From assembly GCA_913058575.1 (NCBI GenBank), contig CAJXRF010000058.1, positions 1 to 35,638 on the forward strand: a DNA stretch of 35,638 bases, written 5' to 3'. A program made the translations under genes and the position numbers. Of the stretch, positions 1,210-34,600 are shown in pieces. The stretch is from an uncultured Bermanella sp. (lineage in GTDB: Bacteria > Pseudomonadota > Gammaproteobacteria > Pseudomonadales > Oceanobacteraceae). Each line of letters starts with the position of its first letter. Positions within the stretch are counted from its first letter, which is position 1. Below the pieces are notes generated by a model, which searched no databases, was not told the origin of the DNA, and saw only the letters and a list, made by a program, of their open reading frames with translations.

Positions 1210-1219
1210 AGACACTAAA

Positions 1220-2121: not shown

Positions 2122-2150
2122 GTATTCTATTTTTATATTTTGGTAATGGC

Positions 2151-3164
2151 TTAGCTGTTCATTTTTTTACGATAATCGCTTGGGCTATTTCCGGTCCAGC
2201 GTTTAAAGCTTCTTGAGAAACTGCTGGAATCTAAAAATCCTAATTGATAGGTAATGGTGGTAATGGATAAGTCCGATTGCTTAATGTACTGCATGGCCAA
2301 ATGTTTACGAGTATCATCTAAAATAACTTTATAGCTGGTGTCTAGCTCATTTAATTTACGATGCAAACTGCGGCTACTGGTGCCTAAAACAGCCGCTACC
2401 TTTTCACGAGTAGGCTCACCATGGGGCATGAGTTCAATTAATGCATTGTATACCGAGGCCACTATGTCACTTTTATTAAAGCGCAATAAATATTCTGCCA
2501 TGACCTGTTCATTAATGCGCACCAATTCAGCATTACCGGTGGGCACCACCTGATCAACAAATTGCTTGGCTAAACGAATTTCATAAAGGTCACTGTTAAA
2601 ATAAATTGGGCACTTAAAAATTCCTTCATGCCGAGAGGTATCTTTTGGTTTATCACGCTTTAATCTCACACTTAAAATATTTTTATCACTATTGTTTAAT
2701 AAGGCTTGCGTGGCTTCCACCACCAATGCCATAAAAGCATCAATGGCATGATAGTTTGGCTCAAAAATATCTTCTGCCATATGAAACTTCACCACTACCT
2801 CATCTTTCTCATCATGAATATCTAAACCCACCGCAGTACTGATGATGCTAGAAAATTTTTGCAAGCGCTCAAGACTTTCACGCATAGAACTTGAGGCATG
2901 ATGGGCATAAGTGATGGCATGAAAACTGGTAGGACTAATGTATTTAATAGCTTCAAGACCAATGCAATCATCACCGGATACCTGTTCGGCAAATTCCCAA
3001 AGGGTGCGCATTTTGTCAACTGCCACCCGTTGGTTCGAGTCCTGAATACACGGGGCATCTATTCCAGCTTTTTTTAGGGCGGTAGCAGCATCACAAAATG
3101 GTTCGATGGCTGCCAATATAGGCATTACCCAAGTGGCAATGGTGGTGTGGTTGGTTTCAGACAT
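2151..3164 (-). CDS. AraC-family regulator with arabinose-binding-type N-domain (OruR/GadR-like)
   Basis: A 337-aa transcriptional regulator. Residues 1-200 resemble the Arabinose_bd ligand-sensing domain of OruR-type AraC proteins. The last 90 residues hold the AraC DNA-binding domain with two helix-turn-helices: the first around VAAVLGTSSRSLHRKL, the second around ITTITYQLGFLDSSSFSR, ending in FKRWTGNSPSDYRK. The length is normal for this subfamily. It converges on the esterase-SDR operon, a usual arrangement for a regulator of such catabolic genes, so it may control that pair. This is inference from position only. No clear Shine-Dalgarno precedes the ATG. Confidence 0.9.
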   Translation of the reverse strand: MSETNHTTIATWVMPILAAIEPFCDAATALKKAGIDAPCIQDSNQRVAVDKMRTLWEFAEQVSGDDCIGLEAIKYISPTSFHAITYAHHASSSMRESLERLQKFSSIISTAVGLDIHDEKDEVVVKFHMAEDIFEPNYHAIDAFMALVVEATQALLNNSDKNILSVRLKRDKPKDTSRHEGIFKCPIYFNSDLYEIRLAKQFVDQVVPTGNAELVRINEQVMAEYLLRFNKSDIVASVYNALIELMPHGEPTREKVAAVLGTSSRSLHRKLNELDTSYKVILDDTRKHLAMQYIKQSDLSITTITYQLGFLDSSSFSRSFKRWTGNSPSDYRKKMNS

Positions 3165-3316
3165 CGACTACATTGACCATTTTTGTCCCGTTTAGTTTAT
3201 ACCTTGTCCCAATATGTTCTGAAGACAGGCAATAACTTATTTATCATACTATGTAATAACTGCTTATAACCTTGATAACAACAAGCAGATCAATAAAAAC
3301 AATAACTTACTCGCCC

Positions 3317-3720
3317 TCACAGGCGTTTCAATTGGCCTAACCGCTCACGCTGTTTACCCAAATAGCTCATTACCGCTTTTAAAGGCAGTGAGCGCCAATA
3401 ACCCCGCCCATTATTCACTTTAGAAATGGGCTCATCTATGGTGTAAAGCAAGCCAAAGCAGAGCGAATGAGTTAAACAGGCAATGTAGATTCACTGGCGG
3501 CCCAAGGTTTACTGATATCTAAGCAGATAAAATGCGCCACGCCAAGCCGTCTTGGATGGGTTTATGGGAATACACCATTTTACTTTACAAGATAACCCGC
3601 CAATAAAGCGAAACAAAGCAAATGGCAAAGTGATAAAGCTGCTGTCTGTACACCCTTTAATGGCAACATTAAAAAGCTAACAGCAAGTGCGACATTTTGA
3701 ATAGCTTTAATCGAGTCTAA
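3317..3720 (-). pseudogene. possible decayed coding region in a 600-bp gene-free stretch
   Basis: The interval 3165-3768 has no intact gene. On the minus strand a coding-like segment can be followed only by changing frame. A hydrophobic stretch reads around 3575-3720. Then comes a segment reading HFICLDISKPWAASES, and after one frame change a last segment with WRSLPLKAVMSYLGKQRERL ending in a stop at 3317-3319. The amino-acid composition (W, Y, charged/hydrophobic alternation) looks more protein-like than random, with at least two frame changes. I do not recognise the family. It may be a decayed membrane protein gene, or a chance run of open frames. The right end also contains the upstream region of the DUF3604 gene. 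Confidence 0.35.
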
Positions 3721-3768
3721 AAATAAAAAGCGGTTTTAATAAAGAAAGATAGTTAAGGAGATCAAGAC

Positions 3769-5646
3769 ATGAAAATAAAAACAATTCTCTTGCCCATATT
3801 AATCGGCGCTAACAGCATTAGCGTGGCCAGTGAGTCACAAACAAGTGTGTACTGGGGCGATACTCACTTACATACTTCTTATTCATTTGATGCATTTTTA
3901 AATAAAAACCAATCTGCCGATCCTGACACCGCTTATCGCTGGGCCAAAGGCAAGCCTGTTATTCATCCATACACGAATAGTCGCATTCAAATTGAGACAC
4001 CTTTAGATTTCCTTGTGGTGTCTGATCACGCTGAAGGCATGGGAGTGATACGCGCTATCACCAACGAAAAAGAAGAATATGGTGAGGAAGGCTTTTTCAA
4101 AAACATCGTGCGTTGGTTTACTGTGCAATACATTCAATATGTATACGACGATGGTAAGGGCGAGGGCATCACCTTATTTAACGAAGTACTGCCTGAAAAA
4201 GCACAAAACCCGGGAACCGATCCTGTACAAGATCCATCCAATATCATGTATGACAATTTAGGAGACATGAGCCCCACCGAAATTACCGCCTGGGGCGAGA
4301 TTGCCGACGCCGCCGATCGTCATAATGAGCCCGGTAAGTTCACCGCCATACTAGGGTGGGAGTGGAGCTCTATTCCCACTGGCGCCAACTTACACCGTGT
4401 GGTCATGTCTCCTAACGACGCGGCCACCGCCAAGAAATATCTGCCTTATGGTTCCGATCAAAGCCAATACCCTGAAGATTTATGGGCTTGGTTAGATAAA
4501 ACCAGTAAAGAAACGGGCAGTGAATTTATTGCCATTCCCCATAACTCTAATGTTAGTAAGGGTTACATGTTCCCTGAAGTGACCTTAAAAGGTGAACCTA
4601 TCAACGTGGCCTATGCCAAAACGCGCATGGCATGGGAGCCTGTGGTAGAGGTCACTCAAATTAAGGGCGACAGCGAAACCCACCCACAGCTATCACCCGA
4701 CGACGAATTTGCCGACTTTGAGTCTTACGGATTTTATCTGCAAAAAACCCCGCAAGACCCCATTGTTACCAAAGCAGATTATGTACGTGCCGGTTTAAAG
4801 CGTGGCTTAGAAATAGAAAATAAAATTGGCGTAAACCCTTATAAATTTGGTCTTATTGGCAGCACCGACTCTCACACCGGTTTATCCACTGCCGAAGAGA
4901 ATAATTTCTGGGGTAAGTTTGCTCACGATTCAACCCCCGACACCAAACGTAAAGATATTATCGGTGGCACCAAAGCCTCTGGTTGGGATATGTCAGCATC
5001 AGGTTTGGCCGCCGTATGGGCAGATGAAAACACCCGTGATGGTATTTACTCTGCCTTTAAACGCCGCGAAGTGTACGCCACCAGTGGTCCTAGAATTAAA
5101 GTGCGTATGTTTGGCGGTTGGAACTTTAATTCCAAAGCCTTACAGGCTGAAAACATGGCCAAATACGGTTATAAACAAGGGGTGCCCATGGGTGGCGATT
5201 TAACCCGTCCATCTGATGTGAATGCTAAAGCCGAGTTTTTAATTCGCGCCACAAAAGATCCTCTGAATGCCAATCTAGATCGTGTGCAAGTGGTTAAAGG
5301 TTGGTTAGATGATCAAGGCATCAGCCATGAAAAAGTATTTAATGTGGCGTGGAGTGATGATCGTAAACTGAATGCCAACGGCAAACTACCAAGCGTGGGC
5401 AATACCGTAAACCTAGAATACGCAAGCTACGACAACAGCATCGGCAGTGCAGAGCTTTCAACCATTTGGAAAGATGAAAGTTTTGATGCTAGCCAGCGTG
5501 CCTTTTACTATGTACGGGTATTGCAAATTCCAACACCTCGTCATTCATTGTATGACGGCATCGCCTTACAAATTGATGCCCCAATTGAAGGGCCTGCCAC
5601 CATTCAAGAGCGTGCTTATACCTCACCGATTTGGTATACGCCTTAA
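3769..5646 (+). CDS. DUF3604 family secreted protein with PHP-like fold
   Basis: A 625-aa exported protein with a signal peptide (about 1-21, ending in SVASES). It matches the DUF3604 family, which is related to PHP-type metal-dependent phosphoesterases. Probable metal-site motifs are GDTHLHTSYSFD (30-41), SDHAEG (85-90), IPHNSN (about 255-260) and GSTDSHTG (about 364-371). The molecular function of the family is not established. AAGGAG precedes the ATG at good distance. It heads an operon-like trio with a PpiC-like protein and a HupE/UreJ protein, a combination I know as recurrent in marine Gammaproteobacteria. A periplasmic metal-dependent hydrolase is the most that should be inferred. Confidence 0.9.
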   Translation: MKIKTILLPILIGANSISVASESQTSVYWGDTHLHTSYSFDAFLNKNQSADPDTAYRWAKGKPVIHPYTNSRIQIETPLDFLVVSDHAEGMGVIRAITNEKEEYGEEGFFKNIVRWFTVQYIQYVYDDGKGEGITLFNEVLPEKAQNPGTDPVQDPSNIMYDNLGDMSPTEITAWGEIADAADRHNEPGKFTAILGWEWSSIPTGANLHRVVMSPNDAATAKKYLPYGSDQSQYPEDLWAWLDKTSKETGSEFIAIPHNSNVSKGYMFPEVTLKGEPINVAYAKTRMAWEPVVEVTQIKGDSETHPQLSPDDEFADFESYGFYLQKTPQDPIVTKADYVRAGLKRGLEIENKIGVNPYKFGLIGSTDSHTGLSTAEENNFWGKFAHDSTPDTKRKDIIGGTKASGWDMSASGLAAVWADENTRDGIYSAFKRREVYATSGPRIKVRMFGGWNFNSKALQAENMAKYGYKQGVPMGGDLTRPSDVNAKAEFLIRATKDPLNANLDRVQVVKGWLDDQGISHEKVFNVAWSDDRKLNANGKLPSVGNTVNLEYASYDNSIGSAELSTIWKDESFDASQRAFYYVRVLQIPTPRHSLYDGIALQIDAPIEGPATIQERAYTSPIWYTP

Positions 5647-8003: not shown

Positions 8004-9215
8004 GTGTCTCAATTTACATTAATGACATCAGCCTTGTCGCCTTTTTCACTAAAGATTCAAGCCTGCTTGGCTTATACCGGTCATACAGCTAAAAGCTTGC
8101 CCGGCGAGGGGGGAAAACTTGAAAATACCCTACAAGCCATTAAAGTGGAAATCGCTAAGCGCAAAAAAACCATTTATAAATACCCAAAAATGACCGAGTT
8201 AGACGAATACCCTGGGGTGCCCTACTTAATAGAACCAAGCGGGCGAGTACAATATGACTCTTCGGCTATTTCTCGCTGGCTAGATACTCAAAATAGTCCA
8301 ATACAAGGGCGAAAATTATGGCCCGTAAACCCAGAGCTTCAATTTATCGCTCAACTCATTGATGAAGCAGGCGATGATTTTATGATTCATTTAGCCCATC
8401 ACCTGCGTTGGTTTCATTCGGCGAAAAGTAATGATGCCGGTCAACGCTTGTATACAGAATTTTCACGCTTTCCACTGGTGAGCCTTTTAAAAAAATTCCC
8501 CATAGGCTTTAGCCAACGCCAAGTTCGAAGGTTACCTTACTTATTTAGTATGCCACCTCAAAACACACAACAAAATGTGCCCAGATATTTAACGGCACCT
8601 ATTAAGGCTGGCTGGCCTGAAACCCATACATTGCTGGATCAGTTATGGCATGACTGTATTCGCTCACTAGATGATATTGTACGTCACCAGCCTTATTTAC
8701 TGGGCGACAGTTTCACCATAAGCGATGCCAGTATTTACGGTATGTTTGGCATGTTATTGGACGATCCAGCGGCTGAACAAAACATGCTAAAGCACACCCC
8801 AGCATTACATAAATGGCTATGGAAAATTAAAAACAACCAACATAAAGACGATATGAATGAGAGTGAAAGTAATTTAAGAATTTCCGACAAATTGGTCAAT
8901 TTCTTAGACATCATCATGAATACTTTTGTACCGCTAATGAAACAAAACGAAACGGCCTATAGCCTGTATAAATCACAAGGGCAGACACTCTTTAACGAGG
9001 AAGCATGGCGAAAAGATCAAGCTTTGTTTGAAGGCATTCTCATGGGTCACCCTTTTAAAACGGTAACTAAAACATTCACCGTGCAAGTTTGGCGTGATCT
9101 TAAAGAAAATTGGCAATCTCTCACAGTGAATCAACAAGCCAGCCTTATGGAACGCATCAATGGCTTAGATGAATTTACACAAGATAATAAACAAGACATT
9201 AAGTTGTCAGCTTAA
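8004..9215 (+). CDS. long GST-like protein with C-terminal extension
   Basis: A 403-aa protein. Residues 1-95 form a thioredoxin-like GST N-domain, with SPFSLKIQACLAYTG near the glutathione site and VPYLIEPSGR then DSSAISRWLD as the cis-Pro and GSH-binding segments. The helical GST C-domain contains LLGDSFTISDASIYG (about 233-247). About 125 further residues (280-403) exceed a normal GST (about 200-230 aa). A similar extended layout is seen in the protein at 26035-27315, so the two may be paralogues. The start is GTG with GGAG about 8 nt upstream. It is probably cytosolic. The reaction is unknown; conjugation, isomerisation or reductive cleavage are all possible. Confidence 0.85.
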   Translation: MSQFTLMTSALSPFSLKIQACLAYTGHTAKSLPGEGGKLENTLQAIKVEIAKRKKTIYKYPKMTELDEYPGVPYLIEPSGRVQYDSSAISRWLDTQNSPIQGRKLWPVNPELQFIAQLIDEAGDDFMIHLAHHLRWFHSAKSNDAGQRLYTEFSRFPLVSLLKKFPIGFSQRQVRRLPYLFSMPPQNTQQNVPRYLTAPIKAGWPETHTLLDQLWHDCIRSLDDIVRHQPYLLGDSFTISDASIYGMFGMLLDDPAAEQNMLKHTPALHKWLWKIKNNQHKDDMNESESNLRISDKLVNFLDIIMNTFVPLMKQNETAYSLYKSQGQTLFNEEAWRKDQALFEGILMGHPFKTVTKTFTVQVWRDLKENWQSLTVNQQASLMERINGLDEFTQDNKQDIKLSA

Positions 9216-10622: not shown

Positions 10623-11348
10623 CTAAGGCATCAAGCCATGTTGTATTTTTAATTTTTTAACCCAAGCGCGATTGTCTTTAAGGAATTCATTAAATTGAAG
10701 GATTACTTCGGGTTTAGAAATGCTAGACAAACTAAAATCAGTTTCTTGGTAATCCAAGGTATTATCAAACACCACAAAATTGGCAGCGTATTTCGAGCCT
10801 TTTAAAAAATGTCGTGTTACGAAAATATTGGAATATATGCCATCAATTAAGTCCTCTTTGATAAGCTTAATCAAACCGGCAATGTTTTCATGCTCGTGAC
10901 GGGTAATGGTGCCCTTATTTATTTGCTCAGTAAAAGCACTGCGCGTGAACCCCATAATCGTGCCTAGGCGTTTTAGCTGAAATTTACCACGCTTGTTGGG
11001 CAATACCATTACCCCATCAATAGACGTCAGTGCCGCTGCACTGTAGGTAATATCTAAGCCCTTTTTAAAATCCATGGCCCAATTAGGATTATCAGGAAAT
11101 TTAAAATCCACTTTTGCTGACTTAAATGCACCAAATAGACTTTTAACACTAAAATATTTGAACATTAAAGTGTGATTATATTGCTTAGCAAAGGCGTCTA
11201 ACAGATCACGTGAATACCCCACATAGTGATCATTCTTCACCGCAGAAATAGGAGAGTAGTCAAATTGCTCGACCCCTATTAATAACTCTTTCGCTATAAC
11301 AGTTGGGCTCAATATAATCATTAAACCAATTGCCCATAGAGATTTCAT
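10623..11348 (-). CDS. periplasmic solute-binding protein, family 3-like
   Basis: A 241-aa exported protein. The signal peptide MKSLWAIGLMIILSPTVIAK is followed by a mature SBP_bac_3-like fold: LLIGVEQFDYSPIS, GYSRDLLDAFAKQYN, and a second lobe with KLIKEDLIDGIYSN. I chose the ATG at 11348, because AAAGGTGA lies about 5 nt upstream of it. The in-frame GTG at 11357 falls inside that ribosome site and would add three residues before the signal peptide. It is first in an operon with tpx and a second, only distantly similar binding protein. No transporter partners are present. The ligand is unknown. Confidence 0.82.
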   Translation of the reverse strand: MKSLWAIGLMIILSPTVIAKELLIGVEQFDYSPISAVKNDHYVGYSRDLLDAFAKQYNHTLMFKYFSVKSLFGAFKSAKVDFKFPDNPNWAMDFKKGLDITYSAAALTSIDGVMVLPNKRGKFQLKRLGTIMGFTRSAFTEQINKGTITRHEHENIAGLIKLIKEDLIDGIYSNIFVTRHFLKGSKYAANFVVFDNTLDYQETDFSLSSISKPEVILQFNEFLKDNRAWVKKLKIQHGLMP

Positions 11349-11676
11349 GTTGGTCACCTTTGATTAACCTGCTAACTTTATCCATCCCTCTTTAGTTATA
11401 GTACATATGGCTTTTTACGGTTTTTTACCCCCAAAACGCAGCCGACTTTTCATGTGACTAACAGCCAAAAAACTTAGCTATGACAGACAGAGCCTCTTTA
11501 TAAGTATCCGCACTAACAGTATTCATGCACATAACGATTCACCATTTTGTTTGCATTTTTAAGCATAGCTAAAAACCCTACTGACACTGGTTGTCACTAG
11601 ATGAGCATAAAGTTAAGGGGTCGGGCAATTTGTTGTTTTGAAAAAGCCCAAGGTTCACAAGAAAAGGAAAATCATT
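11349..11676. other. 328-bp divergent intergenic region
   Basis: This region holds the upstream sequences of the solute-binding protein operon (-) and the ABM-fold gene (+). A short inverted repeat, TGACA-N5-TGTCA, lies at 11582-11596, about 80 bp before the ABM gene, and could be an operator. I see no convincing small gene or RNA. Confidence 0.4.
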
Positions 11677-12000
11677 ATGTCAGCCACAATCGAAATGGTG
11701 TCGTTTAAATTAGCTTCAGGCAGCCACGAACAAGCCTTCTTAGAAACAAACACAGCAGTGGAAAACTGGGTCGTTAAACAACCGGGGTTTCAATACCGTG
11801 CATTAACCAAGCAAGCCGATGGCACCTGGATAGATTTGGTATTCTGGGAATCTTTAGAAACCGCTCAACAAGCAGGCAATGCTTTTATGGCCGCTCAAGA
11901 GCCTAAAGCGATGCTGGCGTTTATCGATAAAGAGACTGTAAACATGCAGCATTTACCAGTATTAGCAGCACGCCCATGCGAGCAATTAGAAAGCGCGTAG
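11677..12000 (+). CDS. ABM-like dimeric alpha+beta barrel protein
   Basis: A 107-aa protein resembling antibiotic-biosynthesis-monooxygenase/dimeric alpha-beta barrel proteins: IEMVSFKLASGSHEQAFLE, then QPGFQYRALTKQADGTWIDLVFWESLE, then helical NAFMAAQEP. Some family members are small cofactor-free monooxygenases and others have no known activity. The start is ATG 11677, with AAAAGGA about 9 nt upstream; an in-frame TTG 13 codons earlier lacks a ribosome site and adds a lysine-rich tail foreign to the family. A YafY/WYL-type regulator follows 125 bp downstream, probably its regulator or partner. Confidence 0.85.
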   Translation: MSATIEMVSFKLASGSHEQAFLETNTAVENWVVKQPGFQYRALTKQADGTWIDLVFWESLETAQQAGNAFMAAQEPKAMLAFIDKETVNMQHLPVLAARPCEQLESA

Positions 12001-24852: not shown

Positions 24853-24885
24853 CCAAAAAAAACCGCAGCCTATTGGCTGCGGTTT
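24853..24885 (-). terminator. rho-independent terminator of the seven-gene minus-strand operon
   Basis: AAACCGCAGCC (24860-24870) and GGCTGCGGTTT (24875-24885) form an 11-bp stem with a 4-nt loop. Read on the minus strand it is followed by T8. It lies about 35 bp after the last operon gene. Confidence 0.93.
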
Positions 24886-24920: not shown

Positions 24921-26048
24921 TTAAATACCGCCAGTAATTTTTTTAGCCAGTTTTTCTGTGGGAAACCACTTTGAAATCAACAAACGTCCTAACCATCTGG
25001 GCGTAGGGTCAACAGATGCATCTATGTCTGCTAATTTCACTAATTGCTTACCCTGATTTTGGCCAGCCAGCATTCTAAAGAATGCATCTGGCGTTTGCTC
25101 TATGCCATGCATGATATCCTCCTTGCCCTTAACGCTGCCTTCCTTAATCCAACGGGCCAACATAATCATGGCCCCTCTTAAGCGGTCTTGATAATCAAGA
25201 ATTACTAAACCTTGTTTTTTAACACGCTTAGTGAGCATGATATTGTGATCACGACGACCCTTGTCTTGCTTAGTATCAGCTAAGTGGCTTATGCCTAAAC
25301 GACCTACAACTGCCACACGGGCATTTTCATTTAAGGTGTCTAATACCGCTTCAGAAATATCGCCGCTGGTGTTATCAAAATACACATCAACCCCTTGTGG
25401 GCAGACTTTTTTGATGTCTTGTGTGAGTTCCTCAATACTTTTGCCCCGATAACTCACCGCCGCATCAAAACCATAATCTCGAATAATGTCTTTGGTTTTT
25501 TCTTCGGTACTCACTATGCCAACAGTTTTGCAGCCCATATTTTTAGCAATTTGTGCTGCAACGCTGCCCACCGCACTGCCACCAGCCGATACTAAAACGG
25601 TTTCACCGGCTTTAGGCTGACAAATTTCTTTAAGGGCAAAATAGGCAGTGGAGCCATTCACTCCCATGGCTCCCAAATAGGAACAAGCACTGGCCAACCC
25701 AAGATTTATTTCTTTACAAGCTTCTTCATCACTAAAGATAGAATACTGCTGCATATCGATGCGACCCAGTCTTACTGAGCCTACTTTTACGTTAGGGTTA
25801 TTCGATTCAATAACCTGGGCGATGCCATAGGCCTGCATGACTTCGCCTGGGTTTACTTTTTCAACGTAATTATCTTCGTCTCTCATGCGCCCAACTAACG
25901 CTGGGTCCATTGATAAATAGGCATTACGCATCAAATACTCACCCGGCTTTAATTGGCGTATCCGTTCTTTTTCAATTCTAAATACATCTGGTGTGGGTTT
26001 GCCATCTGGGCGCTTTATAAAACGAACCACATTATTAAACTGACTCAT
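24921..26048 (-). CDS. zinc-independent MDR-family NADPH-dependent oxidoreductase (PTGR/double-bond reductase type)
   Basis: A 375-aa medium-chain reductase. LSMDPALVGRM (about 45-55) is the family substrate-loop motif. The nucleotide-binding glycine motif is AGGSAVGSVAAQIAKNMG (155-172), and YFDNTSGDISEAVLD matches the leukotriene/curcumin/2-alkenal reductase branch. These enzymes reduce alpha,beta-unsaturated ketones with NADPH. No structural zinc site is seen. The C-terminus is about 40 residues longer than most members. Its start overlaps the 3' end of the long GST gene by 14 bp. As the last operon gene it probably reduces an enone intermediate. Confidence 0.9.
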   Translation of the reverse strand: MSQFNNVVRFIKRPDGKPTPDVFRIEKERIRQLKPGEYLMRNAYLSMDPALVGRMRDEDNYVEKVNPGEVMQAYGIAQVIESNNPNVKVGSVRLGRIDMQQYSIFSDEEACKEINLGLASACSYLGAMGVNGSTAYFALKEICQPKAGETVLVSAGGSAVGSVAAQIAKNMGCKTVGIVSTEEKTKDIIRDYGFDAAVSYRGKSIEELTQDIKKVCPQGVDVYFDNTSGDISEAVLDTLNENARVAVVGRLGISHLADTKQDKGRRDHNIMLTKRVKKQGLVILDYQDRLRGAMIMLARWIKEGSVKGKEDIMHGIEQTPDAFFRMLAGQNQGKQLVKLADIDASVDPTPRWLGRLLISKWFPTEKLAKKITGGI

Positions 26049-27315
26049 TTTCTACCCCGTTACTTTTTAATACTTTCTTTCGTTTAGTTTCTTCTTTTTT
26101 TAGTTTTTCTTTATTCTTAAGGTAGGCGATACGGGCATCTGCAATACCATTTTTGACAAGTGGCGGTGTAAAACCATCAAATAAAGTACAGTGTAATATT
26201 CCATGCTTCATCATGCTTGGCTGTACTTGGGTTTGCGTTAACAGATCATCAATGAAAACTTTATGCTCTTTATTTAGCTGCACAAAGTGATTTTGTACAT
26301 TTTCAAAACTCCAAGCCCGGTATTGAAAGGTCAAAAACTGGGTATCAACACCATAAACCATGGCATTAAATTCTTTACGTCCTTCATGCGTCGCCAGAGC
26401 GGTGCCAATGGCAAAAGGAATATGGGTTTTTGCAACAAAACTGAGCAGTTCTTTTAACGTGTCTGGTACGGTTTCATCGAGATTTATCCAGTCACCAAAT
26501 TCAGTTTGGCCAATGTAACCACGCTTGTCTCCCAATTCATTAATGGTATCGATCCAGTTGCAGGTACGTGATCCTTTAGCTTCCATGATTTGCGCTGAAA
26601 ATGGGTCTTGCAGCATGTGAGCATACAAATGGCCATAAAGAGCAAAGTCGGCCACAGAAGGTTTATCGCCTAATAGAAATTGATATTGACAAAAGTGCTT
26701 ATCTAAAATATTTAATAAATCGATCAGTTGCGTATCTAAGCTTTCACGATTCTCGGCTTTTCCCAATCCTAAGGGTTTATCAAAGCCCACTTGGCGAGCC
26801 AAAATCATCGGGGCTACCTTTGTAGCATGCATATTGACATCGCCATAGCTCATGGAGCGCCCTAAACGGTGGCTTAGAGTATTGCGAGTAATGTCATTAC
26901 CCCAACGATAATGCATTGAGAAACGGGTTAAATATTCATCACCAAAATCTTCCAGTAGCCACATAATAAAAGCCAAACGTTGATCATCTGGAATACAACT
27001 ATTACGCGTAAACTGTTTTTCAAACGCTTCGATAATGGGCGTAGTGTCTTGCAGCACTTCTTCGTTAGGAGTAATGACCACCGGCATGATGCTCATGCCC
27101 ACTTTTTCTGGAATGATGTTGTAATACGTTTTTAAATTAATGCGCATGCGTTTATAAGGAATTTCCTTATAATTCATGTAGGTGCGTAACTTACAGGAAT
27201 AGGGTGAATTACCATCACACCATAATCGATAACAGTCCTGTTGTTGGTCATTTAGCTGTAAAGCACTTTCAATTTCTAAGGCTTCTCTTTGTAGGTTTTT
27301 ATTTTTCTGTAACAT
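26035..27315 (-). CDS. long GST-like protein with C-terminal extension
   Basis: A 426-aa protein. After about 25 N-terminal residues comes a thioredoxin-like GST domain (YRLWCDGNSPYSCKLRTYMN, then MPVVITPNEEVLQDTTPIIEAFE). The helical GST C-domain contains FLLGDKPSVADFALYGHLYAH (about 215-235). About 150 more residues follow and end in a lysine/glutamate-rich tail (KNKEKLKKEETKRKKV). The layout parallels the 403-aa protein at 8004-9215. I chose ATG 27315, with GGAG 7 nt upstream; an in-frame TTG four codons earlier lies before that site. It starts 14 bp after the SDR stop. Its place in the operon suggests a glutathione-linked step or isomerisation in the same pathway. Confidence 0.83.
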   Translation of the reverse strand: MLQKNKNLQREALEIESALQLNDQQQDCYRLWCDGNSPYSCKLRTYMNYKEIPYKRMRINLKTYYNIIPEKVGMSIMPVVITPNEEVLQDTTPIIEAFEKQFTRNSCIPDDQRLAFIMWLLEDFGDEYLTRFSMHYRWGNDITRNTLSHRLGRSMSYGDVNMHATKVAPMILARQVGFDKPLGLGKAENRESLDTQLIDLLNILDKHFCQYQFLLGDKPSVADFALYGHLYAHMLQDPFSAQIMEAKGSRTCNWIDTINELGDKRGYIGQTEFGDWINLDETVPDTLKELLSFVAKTHIPFAIGTALATHEGRKEFNAMVYGVDTQFLTFQYRAWSFENVQNHFVQLNKEHKVFIDDLLTQTQVQPSMMKHGILHCTLFDGFTPPLVKNGIADARIAYLKNKEKLKKEETKRKKVLKSNGVENESV

Positions 27316-27329
27316 GCAAGACTCCAACT

Positions 27330-28187
27330 CTAAGAACTTAAAGCATTTAATAAATAGGCTTTGCGCATTAATAGCTCACGCAACTTAGTGGGTAATATGC
27401 GCTTGGCAATATTCATTAAAGAACTACCATGCCCTATTCTAATGTCTGATGGTGGATGACGGTCCAACATGGCTGCCATGAGTTTTTTAGAAAAAATGTC
27501 AGGGGTGGTGGGGGAATTTGAAGAAATACGAGCGCGCTTTTCAATGGCTGGTAAGGCTGGCTTATAAAGAGAATTAGCAATGAGTGTGTCTTTGAGTTTT
27601 TTAGCGGCCGTGTCACCAAATTTTGATGCCACACCACCTGGGTACACATTCATCACATGCACATTAAATGGAGCTAACTCCATGCGCAGCACTTCACTTA
27701 TGGCATGAATGGCCGCTTTTGAGGCACCATAAACACCGGAAAAAGGTACGGTAAAAATGCCTGCCGAACTGCCAATATTGACAATTAAGCCATTATTTTT
27801 GGTTAACTTTTCTTTTCCTGCACTCTTTTCTCTTAATAATGGCAGCGCCTTTTGAGCCATTAACAAAGGCGCAAAAACATTAGTAGAGAACTGGGCCTGA
27901 ACCTGACTAGCAGGCACTTCTGCCAAAGGGCCCATGGCTCCGTAGCCAGCATTATTGACTAAGATATCTAGATGGCCACATCTCTTTTTAATAATGGCCA
28001 TCACTTGATCAATGTCTGATTCATTATTCACATCTAATTGAACGGGAATAATATTATCAGCCATGTCTTTTAGATCACTTAGTTTCCTAGCTCCAGCAAA
28101 TACAGTGTGACCTTCATTGGCCATCATTTCAGCCAGACTTTTGCCAATGCCACTTGAACAGCCACTTATGAGCACTATTTTTTTCAT
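27330..28187 (-). CDS. short-chain dehydrogenase/reductase (SDR)
   Basis: A 285-aa classical SDR. The dinucleotide motif is SGCSSGIG (8-15). GARK after beta-2 supplies a basic residue (Arg/Lys, about 34-35) favouring NADP(H). NNAGYG is at about 78-83 and SSAGIF carries the catalytic serine. VYGASKAA holds the Tyr/Lys pair (about 153-157). The extended C-terminus (about 225-285) is like retinol/steroid-type SDRs. AGGTGA precedes the ATG. It lies 87 bp downstream of the FAD monooxygenase and 14 bp before the GST-like gene. The substrate is probably a carbonyl intermediate of the pathway. Confidence 0.9.
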   Translation of the reverse strand: MKKIVLISGCSSGIGKSLAEMMANEGHTVFAGARKLSDLKDMADNIIPVQLDVNNESDIDQVMAIIKKRCGHLDILVNNAGYGAMGPLAEVPASQVQAQFSTNVFAPLLMAQKALPLLREKSAGKEKLTKNNGLIVNIGSSAGIFTVPFSGVYGASKAAIHAISEVLRMELAPFNVHVMNVYPGGVASKFGDTAAKKLKDTLIANSLYKPALPAIEKRARISSNSPTTPDIFSKKLMAAMLDRHPPSDIRIGHGSSLMNIAKRILPTKLRELLMRKAYLLNALSS

Positions 28188-28274
28188 GTTTTCACCTATT
28201 CGTTAGCATGTCCCAGTTACAGCATGCACGACCTATTTACTGTAGAGTTCAAATTAAAAGAATAACCATAATGA

Positions 28275-29858
28275 TCATGATAAGGTGCAACCCACAGCAT
28301 CCATGTATTTATTTAATTTCTTATCTAAATTTTTAATGGTGCAATGCAACACCATCATTTTATCTGGGCGAACCACTACCAAATTTTTACCCGACTTAAA
28401 TAATTTTTTGTATTGGCCTTTTTCATCGAGCAACAACTCTTCTTGTTCAGGTTTATTTTTGTCATCTGTGATAATCGTTTCCTTACCCAACATGGAGCGC
28501 CAGCGACTCAAGGTTTTTTCACTTAAATAATGAGCGGGGTTAATATTCATACCTATAATATGAAAGTCTTCTGATATCAGCTTGTCACTTAATAATTTTT
28601 TATTGTCTTTAACCAATTTATGCTGGGGAAACTCAACCCCTGTATTAAAAATCTTACTAATAATTCGGCACTTTATATAATTACCATTAATATGATTATG
28701 AACTTTATCTAATGGCATGCCCTTGGTTTCCGAGTGCACCCCTAGCAAGCCCAACAGCCTAATAATGCTATTTCTAATTCCCGCAACCAGATTGTTTTGT
28801 GGCAATACAACCCCACCAATATATTGGGCAAATTTAATCACCTGGTAACTTTGCGGTAAGCGCTCTGATTGGTAGGTCTCTAATACTTTTGGTTTCAATT
28901 GATTTTTAAGCACAGCGGATAGTTTCCAGGCTAAATTATGCGCATCTCGCATCCCCGCCATCATGCCCTGCCCCGCAAAAGGTGGCGTAATATGAGCCGC
29001 ATCTCCCAATAGAAAAACATTATTAGCTCTATACTGGCCAGCTGTACGTGCATGAAATGTATATACCGCTTTTCGAGATACCTGAAGATCCTCAATATCT
29101 CCCCAACCCTTAAGCAATTCTTGTAAATTTTCAGGCTTAAACAACATTTCAGGGTCATCATGCTCTTTTACAACAAACTCCCAACGCCTGCGTTTGCCAG
29201 GTCCTGGCAAGGTAATTGAAGGGCGTTCAGGATTAATGGTAAACGCGCCTTCACTGCTTAAAACTGGGCTGTTTTCTATATCAATGATCATCCAGTCTTG
29301 CGGATAAGTATCACCTTCAAAACTAATGTTCAGTTTTTTACGTACTGGGCTAGATGCACCGTCACACGCCAATAAATATTGGCAATGTATCACTGAGGTT
29401 TCATCACCTTGTTTAATGGTTAATTCAACCCCTTCTCCCTTATCATTGAAGTCAATTAACTCGGTGCTCGTTAGTAACTGTACACAGTCATGACCATCCA
29501 TTGCTCGGCGTAAACTTTTCTCTAAATCTGGCTGATGAAATGTTCTAATGATGCTGTAACCATTGTTAGGTTCATACGTATCGGCATGAAACAATGAATC
29601 TTGATTTTTATCTAGGAAGTGTATTTTATTAATAAGCCTGAAATCCATAATAGGGTCATCAAGCACGCCGACTAGATCCATAATGCGTGAGCCTTCTTCA
29701 CACATTCCCACCGCTCTTGGAATATTGACGATATCTGGCTCTTTATCTATCACCAATGTATCAATATTGTACTTGCCTAGTATGTTTGCAGCGGTGGTAC
29801 CACATGGGCCAGCACCAACAATCACCACCTCATAGTTTTTTTTTATAATTTGCGTCAT
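28275..29858 (-). CDS. FAD-dependent aromatic monooxygenase, MhpA-like group A hydroxylase
   Basis: A 527-aa flavoprotein hydroxylase. It has the FAD-binding GAGPCG (15-20) and the NIPRAVGMCEEGSRI segment seen in MhpA-type enzymes. The FAD/NADPH DG motif is CDGASSPVRKKL (165-176) and the second FAD motif is GDAAHITPPFAGQG (285-298). The C-terminal thioredoxin-like domain (about 400-527) ends with LVVVRPDKMMVLHC, as in phenol hydroxylases. Such enzymes ortho-hydroxylate phenols with NAD(P)H and O2, giving the catechol needed by the neighbouring extradiol dioxygenase. It is visibly more AT-rich than genes at the left of the window. A hairpin stands 19 nt before the start. Confidence 0.9.
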   Translation of the reverse strand: MTQIIKKNYEVVIVGAGPCGTTAANILGKYNIDTLVIDKEPDIVNIPRAVGMCEEGSRIMDLVGVLDDPIMDFRLINKIHFLDKNQDSLFHADTYEPNNGYSIIRTFHQPDLEKSLRRAMDGHDCVQLLTSTELIDFNDKGEGVELTIKQGDETSVIHCQYLLACDGASSPVRKKLNISFEGDTYPQDWMIIDIENSPVLSSEGAFTINPERPSITLPGPGKRRRWEFVVKEHDDPEMLFKPENLQELLKGWGDIEDLQVSRKAVYTFHARTAGQYRANNVFLLGDAAHITPPFAGQGMMAGMRDAHNLAWKLSAVLKNQLKPKVLETYQSERLPQSYQVIKFAQYIGGVVLPQNNLVAGIRNSIIRLLGLLGVHSETKGMPLDKVHNHINGNYIKCRIISKIFNTGVEFPQHKLVKDNKKLLSDKLISEDFHIIGMNINPAHYLSEKTLSRWRSMLGKETIITDDKNKPEQEELLLDEKGQYKKLFKSGKNLVVVRPDKMMVLHCTIKNLDKKLNKYMDAVGCTLS

Positions 29859-29876
29859 ACACTACCCAGCCTCACA

Positions 29877-29907
29877 TAGGGACTTTACTGCTTTACTAAA
29901 AGTCCCT
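29877..29907 (-). other. intercistronic hairpin 5' of the monooxygenase gene
   Basis: TAGGGACTTT (29877-29886) and AAAGTCCCTA (29898-29907) form a perfect 10-bp stem with an 11-nt loop in the 78-bp gap between the FAH and monooxygenase genes. No T-run follows on either strand. It ends 19 nt before the monooxygenase start, so it may set mRNA stability or act as a partial attenuator. Confidence 0.6.
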
Positions 29908-29936
29908 ACGACATCGTAAATTTTAGAAATTAATTA

Positions 29937-30911
29937 TTAAGCTTGAACAATCGTATTGGTTTGCCTGCCTAGATCGATTGATCCATCCAAAGACTTTATT
30001 TCTAATTCCAAAACATCCCCAGGCTGAAGAAATGTCGCAATGGATTTTTGAGCAATCCGTAGTTTTTCACGGCGCTTTCTATCATTCTTAAAGTTCAATA
30101 ATACGGCAAGCATAGTTTTTAAACTTTTACCGCCAATCACTCCCCCTGGGGTACCGGTTAGAACGCAATCCCCCACATGAATATCGGTAAATTCTGATAA
30201 GTCTGTTAATGCTTTCGGTGGCTTGTGCATTAACTGTGACGTTACCGAGTCTTGTTTCACTTTACCGTTCATTTTTAACGTCAGCTGTAAATTATAAAGC
30301 TGACTAATATCCCCTTTGTCCAACATATAAAGCACAGGACCTATAGGGCAAAATGTACGGTGACTCTTACCGCGATACCATTGCATCATGGGGGCACCAA
30401 ACATGTTGTCCCGTGAAGACACATCATTAGATAAAAATAAGCCACCGATATAATCACCTAATGTGGCATCGGTTACTTTTGTATGTTTATGCAGTTCTTT
30501 TTTAAGTAATATTCCCAGCTCAATTTCGTAATCGAGTAGCTCGCAATCCTCCGGACGAACAATATCATCGTTAGGCCCACTAATACTCGAAGGTGACTTA
30601 GCAAAAAAAGAAGCCTCTTCGTCACCTTTGGTTTGTAAACCACCTTCTTCTCGGTGCTCAATATAATTCACGCCTTGGGCAAAAAGCTGAATATTACGAG
30701 ATATGGGAGAATGGAATATCACGCTATTTTGAGAAATGTCATTTTTTTCAATGGCTTGGTCAAATTTTTCTCTTTCATTTAAATAACAATCCATAAGCGC
30801 TTTATGATCAATAAATTCAAGATTAATTTTATTAATTACTTCTCCATTCAGAATTCCCCACGAAGTATTTTCGCTATTATTCTTCTGGAACTTTACAATT
30901 GACGTGCCCAT
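29937..30911 (-). CDS. fumarylacetoacetate hydrolase (FAH) family protein
   Basis: A 324-aa FAH-fold enzyme. The metal ligands are visible: LLDYEIELGILL (Glu129/Glu131) and SNDVSSRD (Asp163). KSPSSISGPNDDIVRP (105-120) and LTGTPGGV complete the active-site signature. The family hydrolyses or hydrates C-C bonds of 2-keto-enol acids made by ring cleavage, as in homoprotocatechuate, gentisate and catechol meta pathways. AAAGGTAG lies 8 nt before the ATG. It sits between the extradiol dioxygenase and the hydroxylase, so it should act on the ring-fission product. Acylpyruvase, hydratase or decarboxylase activity cannot be told apart here. Confidence 0.9.
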   Translation of the reverse strand: MGTSIVKFQKNNSENTSWGILNGEVINKINLEFIDHKALMDCYLNEREKFDQAIEKNDISQNSVIFHSPISRNIQLFAQGVNYIEHREEGGLQTKGDEEASFFAKSPSSISGPNDDIVRPEDCELLDYEIELGILLKKELHKHTKVTDATLGDYIGGLFLSNDVSSRDNMFGAPMMQWYRGKSHRTFCPIGPVLYMLDKGDISQLYNLQLTLKMNGKVKQDSVTSQLMHKPPKALTDLSEFTDIHVGDCVLTGTPGGVIGGKSLKTMLAVLLNFKNDRKRREKLRIAQKSIATFLQPGDVLELEIKSLDGSIDLGRQTNTIVQA

Positions 30912-30962
30912 GATTGACTACCTTTATTATATTACTGAGAGGTTAAAATTTAATTATTACGC

Positions 30963-32090
30963 TTATAACCATGGTCGTGCTGGACGCGAAATGGCTTTCT
31001 TGGCTTCTTTAATCCAAGGAATGGTCACATCACCTTTTATCAGTCCTTTTACTATTCCCGTAACCTGAGAGAATGTAAGAGCAAAAAAACCTTTTGGTAA
31101 GTCATCTCCCCACGCATAAACATTGCCAGAATCAAGTGGATGATATTCGGTGGTTTTTTCAGAAGTAAACACATCGCCATCGGCATAATGTTCAAATTCA
31201 AACCCGCTAATATCATGCCAGTAATCAAATAATTGACTGCCCAATATATGACGACCTATGCCCCACACATGTTTGTGTTTCTTCATTTTTAAATATTGTT
31301 GACCTTGAGCTACGGCATCCACATCCACCACTTCATAAGCACTATGCAAATAGCCATCGCCGCCTCCTTTACCTATAACAATAGTATGGTGATCGGCTAA
31401 CTCTGAACCAAGATCTAATCGTAAAAATGCCACTGCAGGAGAGCCATCACCTATACATAAAGCATCAGTGGCAATCATGCCAAGATGGCGCATATACCAA
31501 TTAACCGTTTCTTCAAAATTCAGCGCTCCCATCACACAGTGGCCCATTTTTAAAATAGGAGATGGCATAAGTGGAGTACGTTGACCTTTATTAATCCGTG
31601 GGCGATGGTTTAAAGTATTTGCTGGTAATACCTCCCGTCTAGTTTCGAGCATTTCCATTTTCTTAATACCGAAACACACTTCTATTTCCACGCCGTTAGG
31701 GTCTGTTAAACGCACCACTTCACCGCCACCAGGGCGATTTATTTTTTCAATTTTTTTATGGGTTTTTTTGGCTAGTGTTTCTAAATCCTTGCGTGATTTA
31801 GCGGAAAAACCAATCCCTTTGAATGCGCTTTTTTTAGCCTTACGCCCATAATAAAGATAGGGCTCATCACCGTAACCGCGCATGTATATTTCATTCGTGG
31901 TTTTTTCATGGGTTTTCATACCAAAATCTTGCAGAAAGCTCTCTTGTTTATCTAGATTTTTTACATCCCAAATTAGAAAAATTAGTTTCTCTGCTTTAAT
32001 AAGACCTGCCACCCGTTCGATAGGAATAGAACCCGGTGGTGTTTGCGTATTAATGGTGAGCGCTTCGCTACCGGCATATTCTAAGTTCAT
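30963..32090 (-). CDS. VOC-family type I extradiol ring-cleavage dioxygenase
   Basis: A 375-aa two-domain vicinal-oxygen-chelate protein. Domain 1 (about 35-145) is a degenerate betaalphabetabetabeta repeat. Domain 2 (about 180-305) holds the likely Fe(II) ligands His184 (KMGHCVMG), His249 (GYLHSAYEV) and Glu300 (FEFEHYADG). The HSAYEV and HILGSQLFDYWHD segments are like those of 2,3-dihydroxybiphenyl-type dioxygenases acting on large catechols. It is longer than the usual 290-310 aa at both ends. AGAGGG precedes the ATG. It is the second gene of the operon and the predicted ring-opening step. Confidence 0.87.
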   Translation of the reverse strand: MNLEYAGSEALTINTQTPPGSIPIERVAGLIKAEKLIFLIWDVKNLDKQESFLQDFGMKTHEKTTNEIYMRGYGDEPYLYYGRKAKKSAFKGIGFSAKSRKDLETLAKKTHKKIEKINRPGGGEVVRLTDPNGVEIEVCFGIKKMEMLETRREVLPANTLNHRPRINKGQRTPLMPSPILKMGHCVMGALNFEETVNWYMRHLGMIATDALCIGDGSPAVAFLRLDLGSELADHHTIVIGKGGGDGYLHSAYEVVDVDAVAQGQQYLKMKKHKHVWGIGRHILGSQLFDYWHDISGFEFEHYADGDVFTSEKTTEYHPLDSGNVYAWGDDLPKGFFALTFSQVTGIVKGLIKGDVTIPWIKEAKKAISRPARPWL

Positions 32091-32137
32091 GGTACTGCCC
32101 TCTTGGTTGGTTTTTTATTATTAAATTTTAGAAAAAA

Positions 32138-33787
32138 TCAGTTTTTAAATACTTGGTAACTGTCTTTGGCCATCACTTTCGCCATTGAGGTATACCAGTC
32201 ATATATATTTGAAGACGACTTAATGATGAAGCCAGGAATATTGATAAGCATCTCAAGACGGGTATACCAAGCGATATCGGCATAACGGATGCTCTCTCCA
32301 CACAAAAATTCACTGTTTTCCAAAGCCTTTTCGAGCACCTGAAGTTTCTGCTCGATGCGCTGTAAGGCTGACTGTTCATCCACGGCGCTTAAAGGTGAGT
32401 GCTTTTGGTGCATCATATATTTATTGAAAAGAGGCTTAATTTCTTTATAGGTGCCCGCTTCTAGTGCCAGCCACATTCTATTTTGTGCACCGTGTAAACT
32501 GTCACTTCCCCACCAAAGCTGCTGGTGATCAAAACGTTCTATTAAGTATTCAGCTATGGCGCGAGAATCGTGAATAATCATGTCACCATGTTGAAGTACC
32601 GGAACTTCAGCTAGCGGATTTAGATTTTTAAACGTATTCGTTTTTTGCTCGCCATTTTTTAAATCTATCTCTTGATAGGTATAGGCGAGGCCCAAAAAAC
32701 TCATTAATTTGACGATGCGCGCAGAATGAGGAGAAATCTCACTTCCCCATAAAGTTAATGCTTTAGCATTTTCTACAAACTGCGGTTTACTATTGGAGTG
32801 GAATTTAACAGGCAGCAATGCTTGCTTTGGCATGGGCAGTGTTCTAGGAGTAGCAACAGCCAATAATACTTGGTCTATTTTTTGAATCTTGCGCATGACA
32901 CGCCCTAAGCCCCAAACAAAAAAATTATCCAATACACCGCGTTCACTTTTTTGTTTATTAAGAATGCCCCTTAATTTTGGCATTAATGGTGAGGTGGCCA
33001 TTTTACGAAGCTTTTTGGCCTGCTCTGACATAGACGCTTCAAAGGAAGGTCTCTTTTCTAAGCGCTCGATCCACTTCAAAACATTTGGAAAACGACTTGG
33101 GGTAATTTCTAAGCCTAAATAGCTGAACATCACCACCCGAGGAAATACACTGATATCAGCGAGGGTAAACTGCTCTGCCACCAAATAGTGTTTGTTCATT
33201 AAGCCAGCCTCAACTGAGTCTAACCACTGCATTAATTTACGTTCTTGTTGCACTTCTTGCTGGGCCGTTAAAATTTGCATATTCCAAACACGATCTCCCC
33301 ATGCCATATCCAACGGATCTCGGGTACAACGACCATTAATAAGTCTGGCCTCATCTAAGCTGCGCGTTATGTGCGTAATCGGCCCCATGACCCTTTGATA
33401 TAACAGGGGCCTGAAGTCTTTGGACATGGTTTCTTCAGAACCAATCCACATGCGTACTTGAGCACGATCCTTAGCTGATTCGGGCAGTAACGGTGTTTGT
33501 GGGAATTGCTCGTCTAGGTATTCATTAATGGCACCAGAATCAAAAATGACCTGTGCACCATGGCTGAGGGTCGGTACGTAGCCGTTAGGATTAAGCGAGA
33601 GGTACTCTTCGCGGCGCTGCTCCATATTGGGCAAGTCCATTTCCACCGTATCGTAGTCGAGGCCTTTTTCTAACAAAGCAATGCGGCAGCGGCGAACACA
33701 TGGCGATGCAGCTGAGTTATACAACACTAAGCCCTCCACATTAGTGGCACTTAGGGGGCTTTGATCATCTAAAAGTATTTTAGCCAT
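32138..33787 (-). CDS. tandem-domain glutathione S-transferase-like protein
   Basis: A 549-aa fusion of two complete GST units. Unit 1 (about 20-230) has SPCVRRCRIALLEKG, NPNGYVPTL and DSGAINEYLDEQF, then FTLADISVFPRVV. Unit 2 (about 345-545) has SPHSARIVKLMSFLG, NPLAEVPVL and DSRAIAEYLIERF, then CGESIRYADIAWY. A linker of about 100 residues separates them. Both units keep the cis-Pro and Asp-Ser glutathione-binding residues. I chose ATG 33787 because GGAG lies about 8 nt upstream; the longer frame to 33862 crosses the promoter. It is first in the operon. Roles could be isomerase, glutathione addition or lyase. Confidence 0.88.
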   Translation of the reverse strand: MAKILLDDQSPLSATNVEGLVLYNSAASPCVRRCRIALLEKGLDYDTVEMDLPNMEQRREEYLSLNPNGYVPTLSHGAQVIFDSGAINEYLDEQFPQTPLLPESAKDRAQVRMWIGSEETMSKDFRPLLYQRVMGPITHITRSLDEARLINGRCTRDPLDMAWGDRVWNMQILTAQQEVQQERKLMQWLDSVEAGLMNKHYLVAEQFTLADISVFPRVVMFSYLGLEITPSRFPNVLKWIERLEKRPSFEASMSEQAKKLRKMATSPLMPKLRGILNKQKSERGVLDNFFVWGLGRVMRKIQKIDQVLLAVATPRTLPMPKQALLPVKFHSNSKPQFVENAKALTLWGSEISPHSARIVKLMSFLGLAYTYQEIDLKNGEQKTNTFKNLNPLAEVPVLQHGDMIIHDSRAIAEYLIERFDHQQLWWGSDSLHGAQNRMWLALEAGTYKEIKPLFNKYMMHQKHSPLSAVDEQSALQRIEQKLQVLEKALENSEFLCGESIRYADIAWYTRLEMLINIPGFIIKSSSNIYDWYTSMAKVMAKDSYQVFKN

Positions 33788-33813
33788 GTGGACCGCTCCA
33801 AAATCATTAAATG

Positions 33814-33863
33814 CACTATAGTGTAAAATGTACAGGCAGTGCAATAATAATTTAAAGTGCACT
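33814..33863. promoter_or_regulatory. divergent control region: operon promoter and candidate TetR operators
   Basis: On the minus strand TTGCAC and TATAGT, 18 bp apart, form a promoter for the GST-led operon. The -10 sits in the perfect palindrome CACTATAGTG (33814-33823). The hexamer TGCACT or its complement recurs at 33812-33817, 33838-33843 and in the palindrome AGTGCACT (33856-33863). These are plausible sites for the divergent TetR protein. Confidence 0.55.
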
Positions 33864-33885
33864 CTCGCGTGACATTCTTAAAATA

Positions 33886-33894
33886 TGCTAGAAT
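33886..33894 (+). promoter_or_regulatory. extended -10 promoter of the tetR-type gene
   Basis: TGCTAGAAT matches the extended -10 consensus TGnTATAAT at 8 of 9 positions. It places transcription start near 33901 and therefore argues against translation starts upstream of it. Confidence 0.55.
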
Positions 33895-33949
33895 GCCCGC
33901 TCTCGCTGGGATTGACGTAGGAAATAACATTTTGGGTGATGCAGAAGAA

Positions 33950-34600
33950 ATGATTAAAATTGAGCCTAGTAAGCCCAATCGTATGGCCCGCCGTCGTCAG
34001 GAAACCCGTGCAAAGCTATTGGCCGCCACCCATGAGTTAATCGTGGAAAAGGGCATAGATAAAACCACCATGAGTGATATTACTGAGGCGGCAGACCTTG
34101 GAAGACGCACCTTTTATTATCACTTCACTAGCAAAGATGAGTGCATTTCCGCCACGGCAGTGGAAGTGTACCAACGCCATGCGCTGGCCGTTTTAACCAT
34201 AGTCTCTCCTAATGATGACCCTGCATTGGTCATGGCCACAGCCACTCAATCGGTATTAAGTTCCATGCTGCGCGAACCCATTACCAAACGTTTGGCAGAA
34301 CGCCCAAGGCTTTTGGGTGAAGCTTTAATGGGGGCCATAGGGCAGTTTGTGCACAGGGATTTACAAGCGGGAATTGATATTGGGCGTTTCACACCACCAG
34401 TGAGGCCTAATGTGTTAGACAGCATGATAATGTGGTCTTTGGTGGGGCTTATTGTTGAAGCCATAGAAGTGCAAACTGATTTAACCGCGGTTCTGCAAGA
34501 ATATGCTCAAATGTTTTTAATGATATTGGGCATAGAAAACAGCGAGGCTAAACAAATTTCAATACAAGCCCTTGAGAACTTAAACAAATTACGTGACTAA
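33950..34600 (+). CDS. TetR/AcrR-family repressor
   Basis: A 216-aa TetR protein. The HTH is at about 15-60 (ARRRQETRAKLLAATHELI, then TTMSDITEAADLGRRTFYYHF). The C-terminal ligand domain is about 150 aa of helices. It is divergent from the seven-gene GST/monooxygenase operon, the usual layout for a local repressor released by a pathway metabolite. I chose ATG 33950 (AGAAGAA just upstream). The frame is open to GTG 33857, but an extended -10 element at 33886-33894 lies inside that extra part. TTG 33932, with TAGGA upstream, is another option. Confidence 0.88.
   Translation: MIKIEPSKPNRMARRRQETRAKLLAATHELIVEKGIDKTTMSDITEAADLGRRTFYYHFTSKDECISATAVEVYQRHALAVLTIVSPNDDPALVMATATQSVLSSMLREPITKRLAERPRLLGEALMGAIGQFVHRDLQAGIDIGRFTPPVRPNVLDSMIMWSLVGLIVEAIEVQTDLTAVLQEYAQMFLMILGIENSEAKQISIQALENLNKLRD

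Follow-up and report, generated by a model that had tools for sequence, protein, structure and literature searches.

A probable peripheral ring-cleavage operon with a tandem glutathione transferase in an uncultured Bermanella sp.

Introduction

Why should an operon built around a set of ring-cleavage enzymes also carry three glutathione transferase (GST) units and two oxidoreductases? This question is raised by a seven-gene operon in an uncultured Bermanella sp., on contig CAJXRF010000058.1 of assembly GCA_913058575.1. The window that we analyzed is the whole of this contig (35,638 nucleotides), labeled C58 and one of the 186 contigs that make up a 5.72-Mb draft genome, G000. The operon encodes a flavin hydroxylase, a type I extradiol dioxygenase (VOC), and an FAH-family hydrolase (FAH), together called the trio, and four accessory proteins: a tandem GST (GSTtan), a 430-aa GST-like protein (GST430), an SDR oxidoreductase (SDR), and an enone reductase (MDR). 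A first-pass annotation, made from the letters alone, had proposed a peripheral pathway for a bulky phenolic or quinone-type compound, perhaps with a glutathione-dependent step, or else a tailoring pathway. Overall, we find this interpretation partly supported. The peripheral ring-cleavage pathway gains support, with a GST component that recurs, and we put at roughly 0.6 the probability that the operon is controlled by TetR and serves the peripheral catabolism of a phenol- or resorcinol-type compound, with a glutathione-dependent isomerase or quinone-handling step. The trio itself is known; it is the recurrent GST/MDR/SDR set that makes the operon a variant. Below, numbers preceded by L, G, and g denote examined loci, genomes, and genera, respectively.

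Results

In a sample of 390 genomes of the order, in which GSTtan and MDR were searched regardless of their neighbors, GSTtan relatives (E ≤1e-35) occur at seven places in six genomes. At all seven, GSTtan directly adjoins a trio gene, VOC, FAH, and hydroxylase are all present, and a TetR-like gene is no more than a few kb away, with a transposase-like gene intervening in L134. MDR relatives (E ≤1e-85; 53-63% identical) occur at five places in five genomes, all five within the six that carry GSTtan. Four of these places are ≤4 kb from a trio (the window, L129, L132, and L140), and at the fifth, L141 (a 6.6-kb contig), MDR adjoins an SDR and a piece of GSTtan. SDR relatives that are 43-51% identical to the window's are found at L141 and at trio loci L114, L129, L132, and L134. 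The full double GST is present at three of the seven GSTtan places (the window, L129, and L130). Three separate lineages are represented in the order sample—the window's genus, g546, and G919—and in g546 four of five genomes have a match, versus none of 10 other genomes of that family. Two loci from the VOC scan described below, both in metagenome-assembled genomes (MAGs), bring in further lineages and carry parts of the same set: L071, from a Hyphomonas MAG, has an MDR (53% identical), a GST430-like protein, a double GST (41%), a hydroxylase, a VOC, and a more distant FAH, while L114, from a Salinisphaerales MAG, has a hydroxylase, a VOC, an FAH, an MDR (58%), a GST430-like protein, and an SDR (43%). 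The conserved co-occurrence of all seven families, which the first-pass annotation had singled out as a check, is found in part: relatives of GSTtan, MDR, and SDR do recur beside the trio, but not always together, and among the loci examined only the window has all seven families in one run.

GSTtan was matched in the window's own genome only, both among 55 relatives (E ≤1e-40) and among 398 genomes of the phylum (E ≤1e-50), and on no plasmid at E ≤1e-40; at the thresholds applied, neither GSTtan nor MDR had a match in eight other sampled genomes of the window's genus. As for neighboring genes, FadL-like outer-membrane proteins (named by eye) adjoin L129, L130, L132, and L133, all from one genus, which would fit a hydrophobic substrate. 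The G919 cluster (L134) is flanked by transposase-like genes, also named by eye, at 852-4567 and 10895-11764, which hints at mobility.

The linked group, defined by neighbor genes before any tree was built, is not a single lineage of trios. The VOC tree contains 95 proteins, with 10 linked rows including the window; L131, a copy of L115, whose contig is to judge by length and gene content identical with G1013:C30, was omitted from the trees, while in the 95-locus count used below (the best 80 scan loci plus 15 from other searches) L131 is included and the window is not, with 10 linked loci. On this tree, the linked VOCs need four changes, at least three of which are forced by strongly supported branches, with the caution that branches are long and that three changes could equal one gain and two losses. 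Grouping the linked VOCs in one clade is rejected (approximately unbiased [AU] test, p 7.1e-10, on a 44-row subset chosen out of the 95), as is a one-clade constraint without the g546 rows (AU p 8.2e-6), a variant chosen after seeing the tree. Most inner branches of the GST tree are weakly supported, and L071_C sits on a long branch. In this tree, the C halves of the double GST form one group (93/92, slightly below the tool's mark for firm support) and those of the window and Hyphomonas are sisters (97/97), while the N halves are not resolved. Since the linked VOCs are not one clade and the GST C halves group, one GST family stands beside different trio lineages, an arrangement that would be difficult to account for if their functions were unrelated. 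This raises the prospect, which we advance tentatively and at somewhat less than even odds, of a distinct glutathione-dependent ring-cleavage pathway in which a new fused double GST acts on the cleavage product or on its quinone precursor, and which arose on more than one occasion, when the same GST, MDR, and SDR families were combined with different trio lineages in Alpha- and Gammaproteobacteria.

The trio is a widespread and known kind of enzyme set. The hydroxylase has the flavin hydroxylase motifs GAGPCG, CDGA, and GDAAH. VOC residues H184, H249, and E300, the presumed iron ligands by analogy with BphC and catechol 2,3-dioxygenase, are invariant in 7/7 aligned proteins, the window's included, and the protein fits the 2-His-1-Glu iron site of type I extradiol dioxygenases. 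FAH has a His86-x-x-Glu dyad, which is conserved in all 87 matches above 150 bits (HxxE in 76 and HxxD in 11, with one duplicate record). Such a His-x-x-Glu/Asp dyad functions in acylpyruvases such as FAHD1, which is among the solved relatives of the window FAH. None of the three enzymes reaches a curated NCBIfam orthologue cut-off. Orthology with MhpA is not supported for the hydroxylase (397.1 versus a cut-off of 546, and 372.4 versus 390), nor is orthology of VOC with HpaD (68.7/321.4), catechol 2,3-dioxygenase (53.6/320.2), BphC (38.1/366.45), and HsaC (26.1/450). The better of two solved relatives of the hydroxylase in a sequence search is FlsO1 (7vwp), a polyketide hydroxylase, a kinship that would suit an operon for making or tailoring a secondary metabolite. 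However, a ring-opening dioxygenase and an FAH hydrolase are usually catabolic, and no biosynthetic core enzyme was recognized by eye among the open reading frames (ORFs) read in the window or in the linked loci. The tailoring option of the first-pass annotation, which nothing we found favors, is in our view very improbable.

A scan of genome contigs with a single VOC sequence gave no confirmed match, while an alignment-based scan gave at least 538 confirmed relatives, of which the best 80, 39-46% identical to the window VOC, were used as scan loci. Among these 80, an MhpA match lies within 9 kb of VOC in 64, an FAH match in 73, and both in 58 (counted on either strand by bit thresholds, ≥150 bits for MhpA; contig ends may conceal partners). 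The distribution of VOC is patchy: among the 55 relatives, 12 have a match at E ≤1e-3 and only the window's own genome, G020, and G026 one below 1e-50, and four of 369 genomes of the class, own genome counted, have one at E ≤1e-40. A second trio cluster is present in the same genome, on contig C68 (L028:5059-12642). It shares TetR, FAH, MhpA-like, and VOC genes with the operon (the two VOCs are 38% identical), but an NmrA-like protein and an acyl-CoA synthetase, both named by eye, replace the GSTs, SDR, and MDR. More generally, 47 of the 85 loci that lack the GST/MDR/SDR set have a strong acyl-CoA synthetase match no farther than 9 kb away, and none of the 10 that carry it do (Fisher p 0.001 assuming independent loci, an assumption that fails); L071 has an AMP-ligase farther away than this count reaches.

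The relatives also offer a clue to the type of ring. Both subunits of a molybdoenzyme are encoded in the VOC/FAH stretch at eight of the best 80 scan loci and at L030, L034, and L038, and the small subunit at L034 matches pyrogallol hydroxytransferase (4v4c, E 1.1e-61). In the stretch examined, no MhpA match was seen at five of the eight (L055, L065, L074, L077, and L089) or at L030, L034, and L038, while L070, L080, and L091 have one. The pattern points to two unrelated enzymes as possible sources of the extra ring hydroxyl, and to trihydroxybenzene-type rings as substrates of the VOC relatives. The scan relatives are 39-46% identical to the window VOC, and extending this ring type to it is an argument by analogy.

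Several known systems resemble the operon in part. The orcinol pathway, comprising a hydroxylase, a trihydroxytoluene dioxygenase, and a trioxoheptanoate hydrolase, ends by hydrolyzing a 2,4-dioxo acid, a three-step logic like that of the window trio; we know of no GST set associated with it. The gentisate route (NagL/NagK type) resembles the operon too, with a hydroxylase, a ring dioxygenase, a GST-family maleylpyruvate isomerase, and an FAH-family fumarylpyruvate hydrolase, but its dioxygenase is a cupin rather than a VOC and its GST is a single unit. The ipp cluster of Rhodococcus sp. D-6 (2-isopropylphenol) shares an extradiol dioxygenase and a gene annotated with an FAH domain, but has a two-component monooxygenase, and the word glutathione is absent from the main text of the paper describing it. 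Classical meta pathways (dmp/xyl/mhp) include an aldolase and an acetaldehyde dehydrogenase, neither of which is among the operon ORFs. A parallel by enzyme class is the HcdABC operon for the 7-hydroxycoumarin/3-(2,4-dihydroxyphenyl)propionate route of Pseudomonas mandelii 7HK4, which is described as encoding a class A flavin hydroxylase, a type I extradiol dioxygenase, and an FAH hydrolase, and which, as a three-gene operon, is without GST, MDR, and SDR, unlike the operon here (PMC6222606). There, recombinant Escherichia coli cells indicate that the FAH-family HcdC hydrolyzes the ring-cleavage product, and the products drawn are 2-hydroxy-4-oxopentenoate and succinate, with one arrow of the scheme marked hypothetical (PMC6222606). 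That work shows enzymes of these three classes to be capable of opening a trihydroxylated ring (PMC6222606). The first-pass annotation was right that the aldolase and acetaldehyde dehydrogenase are missing from the operon, but this is no anomaly because a trio of the HcdABC class needs neither. A study of orcinol in oil microcosms adds nothing on the operon, as it only names orcinol hydroxylase (PMC4656828). No characterized operon with this GST set was found in the literature searched, which took in few subscription papers.

The domain matches agree with three GST units spread over two proteins, GSTtan and GST430. GSTtan has a Ser-Pro-Cys motif in its N half and Ser-Pro-His in its C half. Structure models of GSTtan (mean pLDDT 42.8, from a three-row alignment) and GST430 (50.8, from four rows) were too poor for a fold search. 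The wider genome makes GST430 weak evidence for a dedicated pathway role, because it has seven relatives elsewhere in the genome parts read (338-417 aa, one cut by an edge, the weakest 22% identical; on L031, L032, and L033, i.e. G000:C21, C9, and C16), and none of the seven lies in a recognized ring-cleavage cluster. Some of them adjoin acyl-CoA dehydrogenase, enoyl-CoA hydratase, or Baeyer-Villiger-like genes (by eye). In the window itself, a 403-aa protein at 8004-9215 looks by eye like a long GST and is unmatched by GST430 at E 1e-5. The SDR has the motifs SGCSSGIG and YGASK. The solved relatives of MDR, among them alkenal, double-bond, zingerone, and prostaglandin reductases, support assigning it to the wider double-bond reductase group; identity as curcumin reductase CurA is not supported (NCBIfam 287.9 versus a cut-off of 440).

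Two alternative roles for these proteins can be weighed here. Following LigD/LigF/LigG logic, an ether-cleaving front end would have the SDR oxidize a benzylic alcohol, one GST cleave the ether, and another remove the thioether, delivering a phenol to the trio. The shared operon of an SDR and several GST units, and a weak similarity to LigF (4xt0, 51.6 bits), speak for it. Nevertheless, the NCBIfam beta-etherase (LigE/LigF type) assignment is not supported (40.8 bits versus a cut-off of 440), no solved relative of the SDR was found at E ≤1e-35, and the parts come apart, with the trio and MDR alone in L140 and SDR and MDR without GSTtan in L114, all of which makes this front end quite unlikely. 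Of the glutathione steps raised by the first-pass annotation, isomerization stays a leading idea. In the other scenario, the GSTs would add or remove glutathione on a reactive hydroxyquinone that arises when the trihydroxylated intermediate autoxidizes, and MDR would be a quinone or enone reductase, so that the whole would be a shunt for protection and not part of the pathway proper. The link of trio relatives to pyrogallol-hydroxytransferase-like enzymes, the placement of MDR in the enone/alkenal reductase group, and the Ser-Pro motif in both halves of GSTtan are consistent with such a shunt. Yet 85 of the 95 VOC loci are without the GST/MDR/SDR set, so protection is not generally needed, and the operon family matches listed at E ≤0.001 include no glutathionyl-hydroquinone reductase family. 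We regard a purely protective role as unlikely, though less so than ether cleavage.

The locus itself is well defined (Table 1). All seven minus-strand ORFs are intact, and each protein family is backed by Pfam/NCBIfam matches, in line with the first-pass annotation, whose strong terminator and divergent TetR are also confirmed. Its short or overlapping junctions hold loosely, with overlaps of 14 bp (GST430/MDR) and 2 bp (SDR/GST430) but 47-87 bp at the others. The terminator, 3' of the MDR stop, is an 11-pair stem (seven G-C) followed by a T tract. GSTtan starts with ATG (33787-33785); for GST430, ATG at 27315 is preferred to TTG at 27327, and TetR probably starts at ATG 33950 rather than at the listed GTG 33857, which leaves 162 bp between the divergent starts. 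A perfect 10-bp palindrome read by eye, CACTATAGTG (33814-33823), lies between TetR and GSTtan and is a candidate operator. A single promoter region for the operon is plausible, although promoter-like sites there number 16 against a shuffle mean of 27.4. The operon G+C (40.7%) is near that of the rest of the window (41.9%), so composition says nothing about horizontal gain.

Table 1. Features of the operon and its flanks in the window
Feature	Coordinates	Strand	Basis and remarks
GSTtan, tandem (double) glutathione transferase, 549 aa	32138..33787	-	First gene; ORF, domain matches, motifs
VOC, two-domain type I extradiol dioxygenase, 375 aa	30963..32090	-	ORF, domain matches
FAH-family hydrolase, 324 aa	29937..30911	-	ORF, domain matches, solved relatives
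MhpA-like class A flavin hydroxylase, 527 aa	28275..29858	-	ORF, domain matches, motifs
SDR oxidoreductase, 285 aa	27330..28187	-	ORF, domain matches, motifs
GST430, long GST-like protein	26035..27315	-	ORF, domain matches
MDR, NADPH-dependent enone/double-bond reductase family, 375 aa	24921..26048	-	Last gene; domain matches, solved relatives
TetR-family regulator, divergent	33950..34600	+	ORF, domain matches
Divergent promoter/operator region, predicted	33788..33949	.	Sequence reading
Intrinsic terminator, predicted	24860..24885	-	Stem and T tract

Discussion

The pathway that we propose for this operon would start with the flavin hydroxylase, which would hydroxylate a hydrophobic phenol- or resorcinol-type ring to a catechol or, with greater likelihood, to a trihydroxybenzene. 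VOC would open the ring beside a hydroxyl to produce a 2,4-dioxo (acylpyruvate-like) or dienone acid, and FAH would hydrolyze a C-C bond in this product to yield two pieces, one of them a small 2-oxo acid, which is why an aldolase would be unneeded. GSTtan would most likely isomerize the ring-cleavage product with glutathione before hydrolysis, a reaction comparable to that of maleylpyruvate isomerase in the gentisate route. As a second choice, it might trap or recycle a quinone arising from the trihydroxylated intermediate, and we would rank ether cleavage third. MDR and SDR may then act on the released fragment or on the side chain, reducing its enone and ketone, which would set the SDR in the reductive direction.

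Several observations weigh against the proposed catabolic role for the GSTs, or narrow the evidence for it. First, a 2,4-dioxo product can tautomerize and would need no isomerase, and the score of GSTtan for maleylacetoacetate isomerase (zeta GST) is 163.1, below the cut-off of 171.05 even with two stretches summed, the best stretch covering profile positions 2-118 of 211. Second, the counts of recurrence are not independent, as four of the six GSTtan genomes belong to g546 and G1013 supplies two of the seven places; moreover, the order searches scored only the top three (GSTtan) or five (MDR) candidates per genome, and weaker copies may have escaped. Third, the GST is variable, being a single unit related to the N half in L131 and L134, split into two ORFs by an in-frame stop in L132:8660-10347 (G1013), and cut by the contig end in L133. 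The set is not constant either: GSTtan is unmatched in L114, MDR is the sole accessory gene in L140, and L134 has no MDR in the 12-kb stretch examined. Since 85 of 95 trio or VOC loci are devoid of the set, the trio must be able to work without the GST step. Finally, the window VOC is on a long branch with no firm position in the tree.

The recurrent association nevertheless turns a co-occurrence noticed blind into a compact, testable gene set consisting of a double GST, an enone reductase, an SDR, and the trio, for which the GST-free paralogue in the same genome provides a natural comparison. If the proposed role of the GSTs is true, glutathione chemistry would be part of a recurring ring-cleavage route beyond the known gentisate, homogentisate, lignin-ether, and pentachlorophenol cases.

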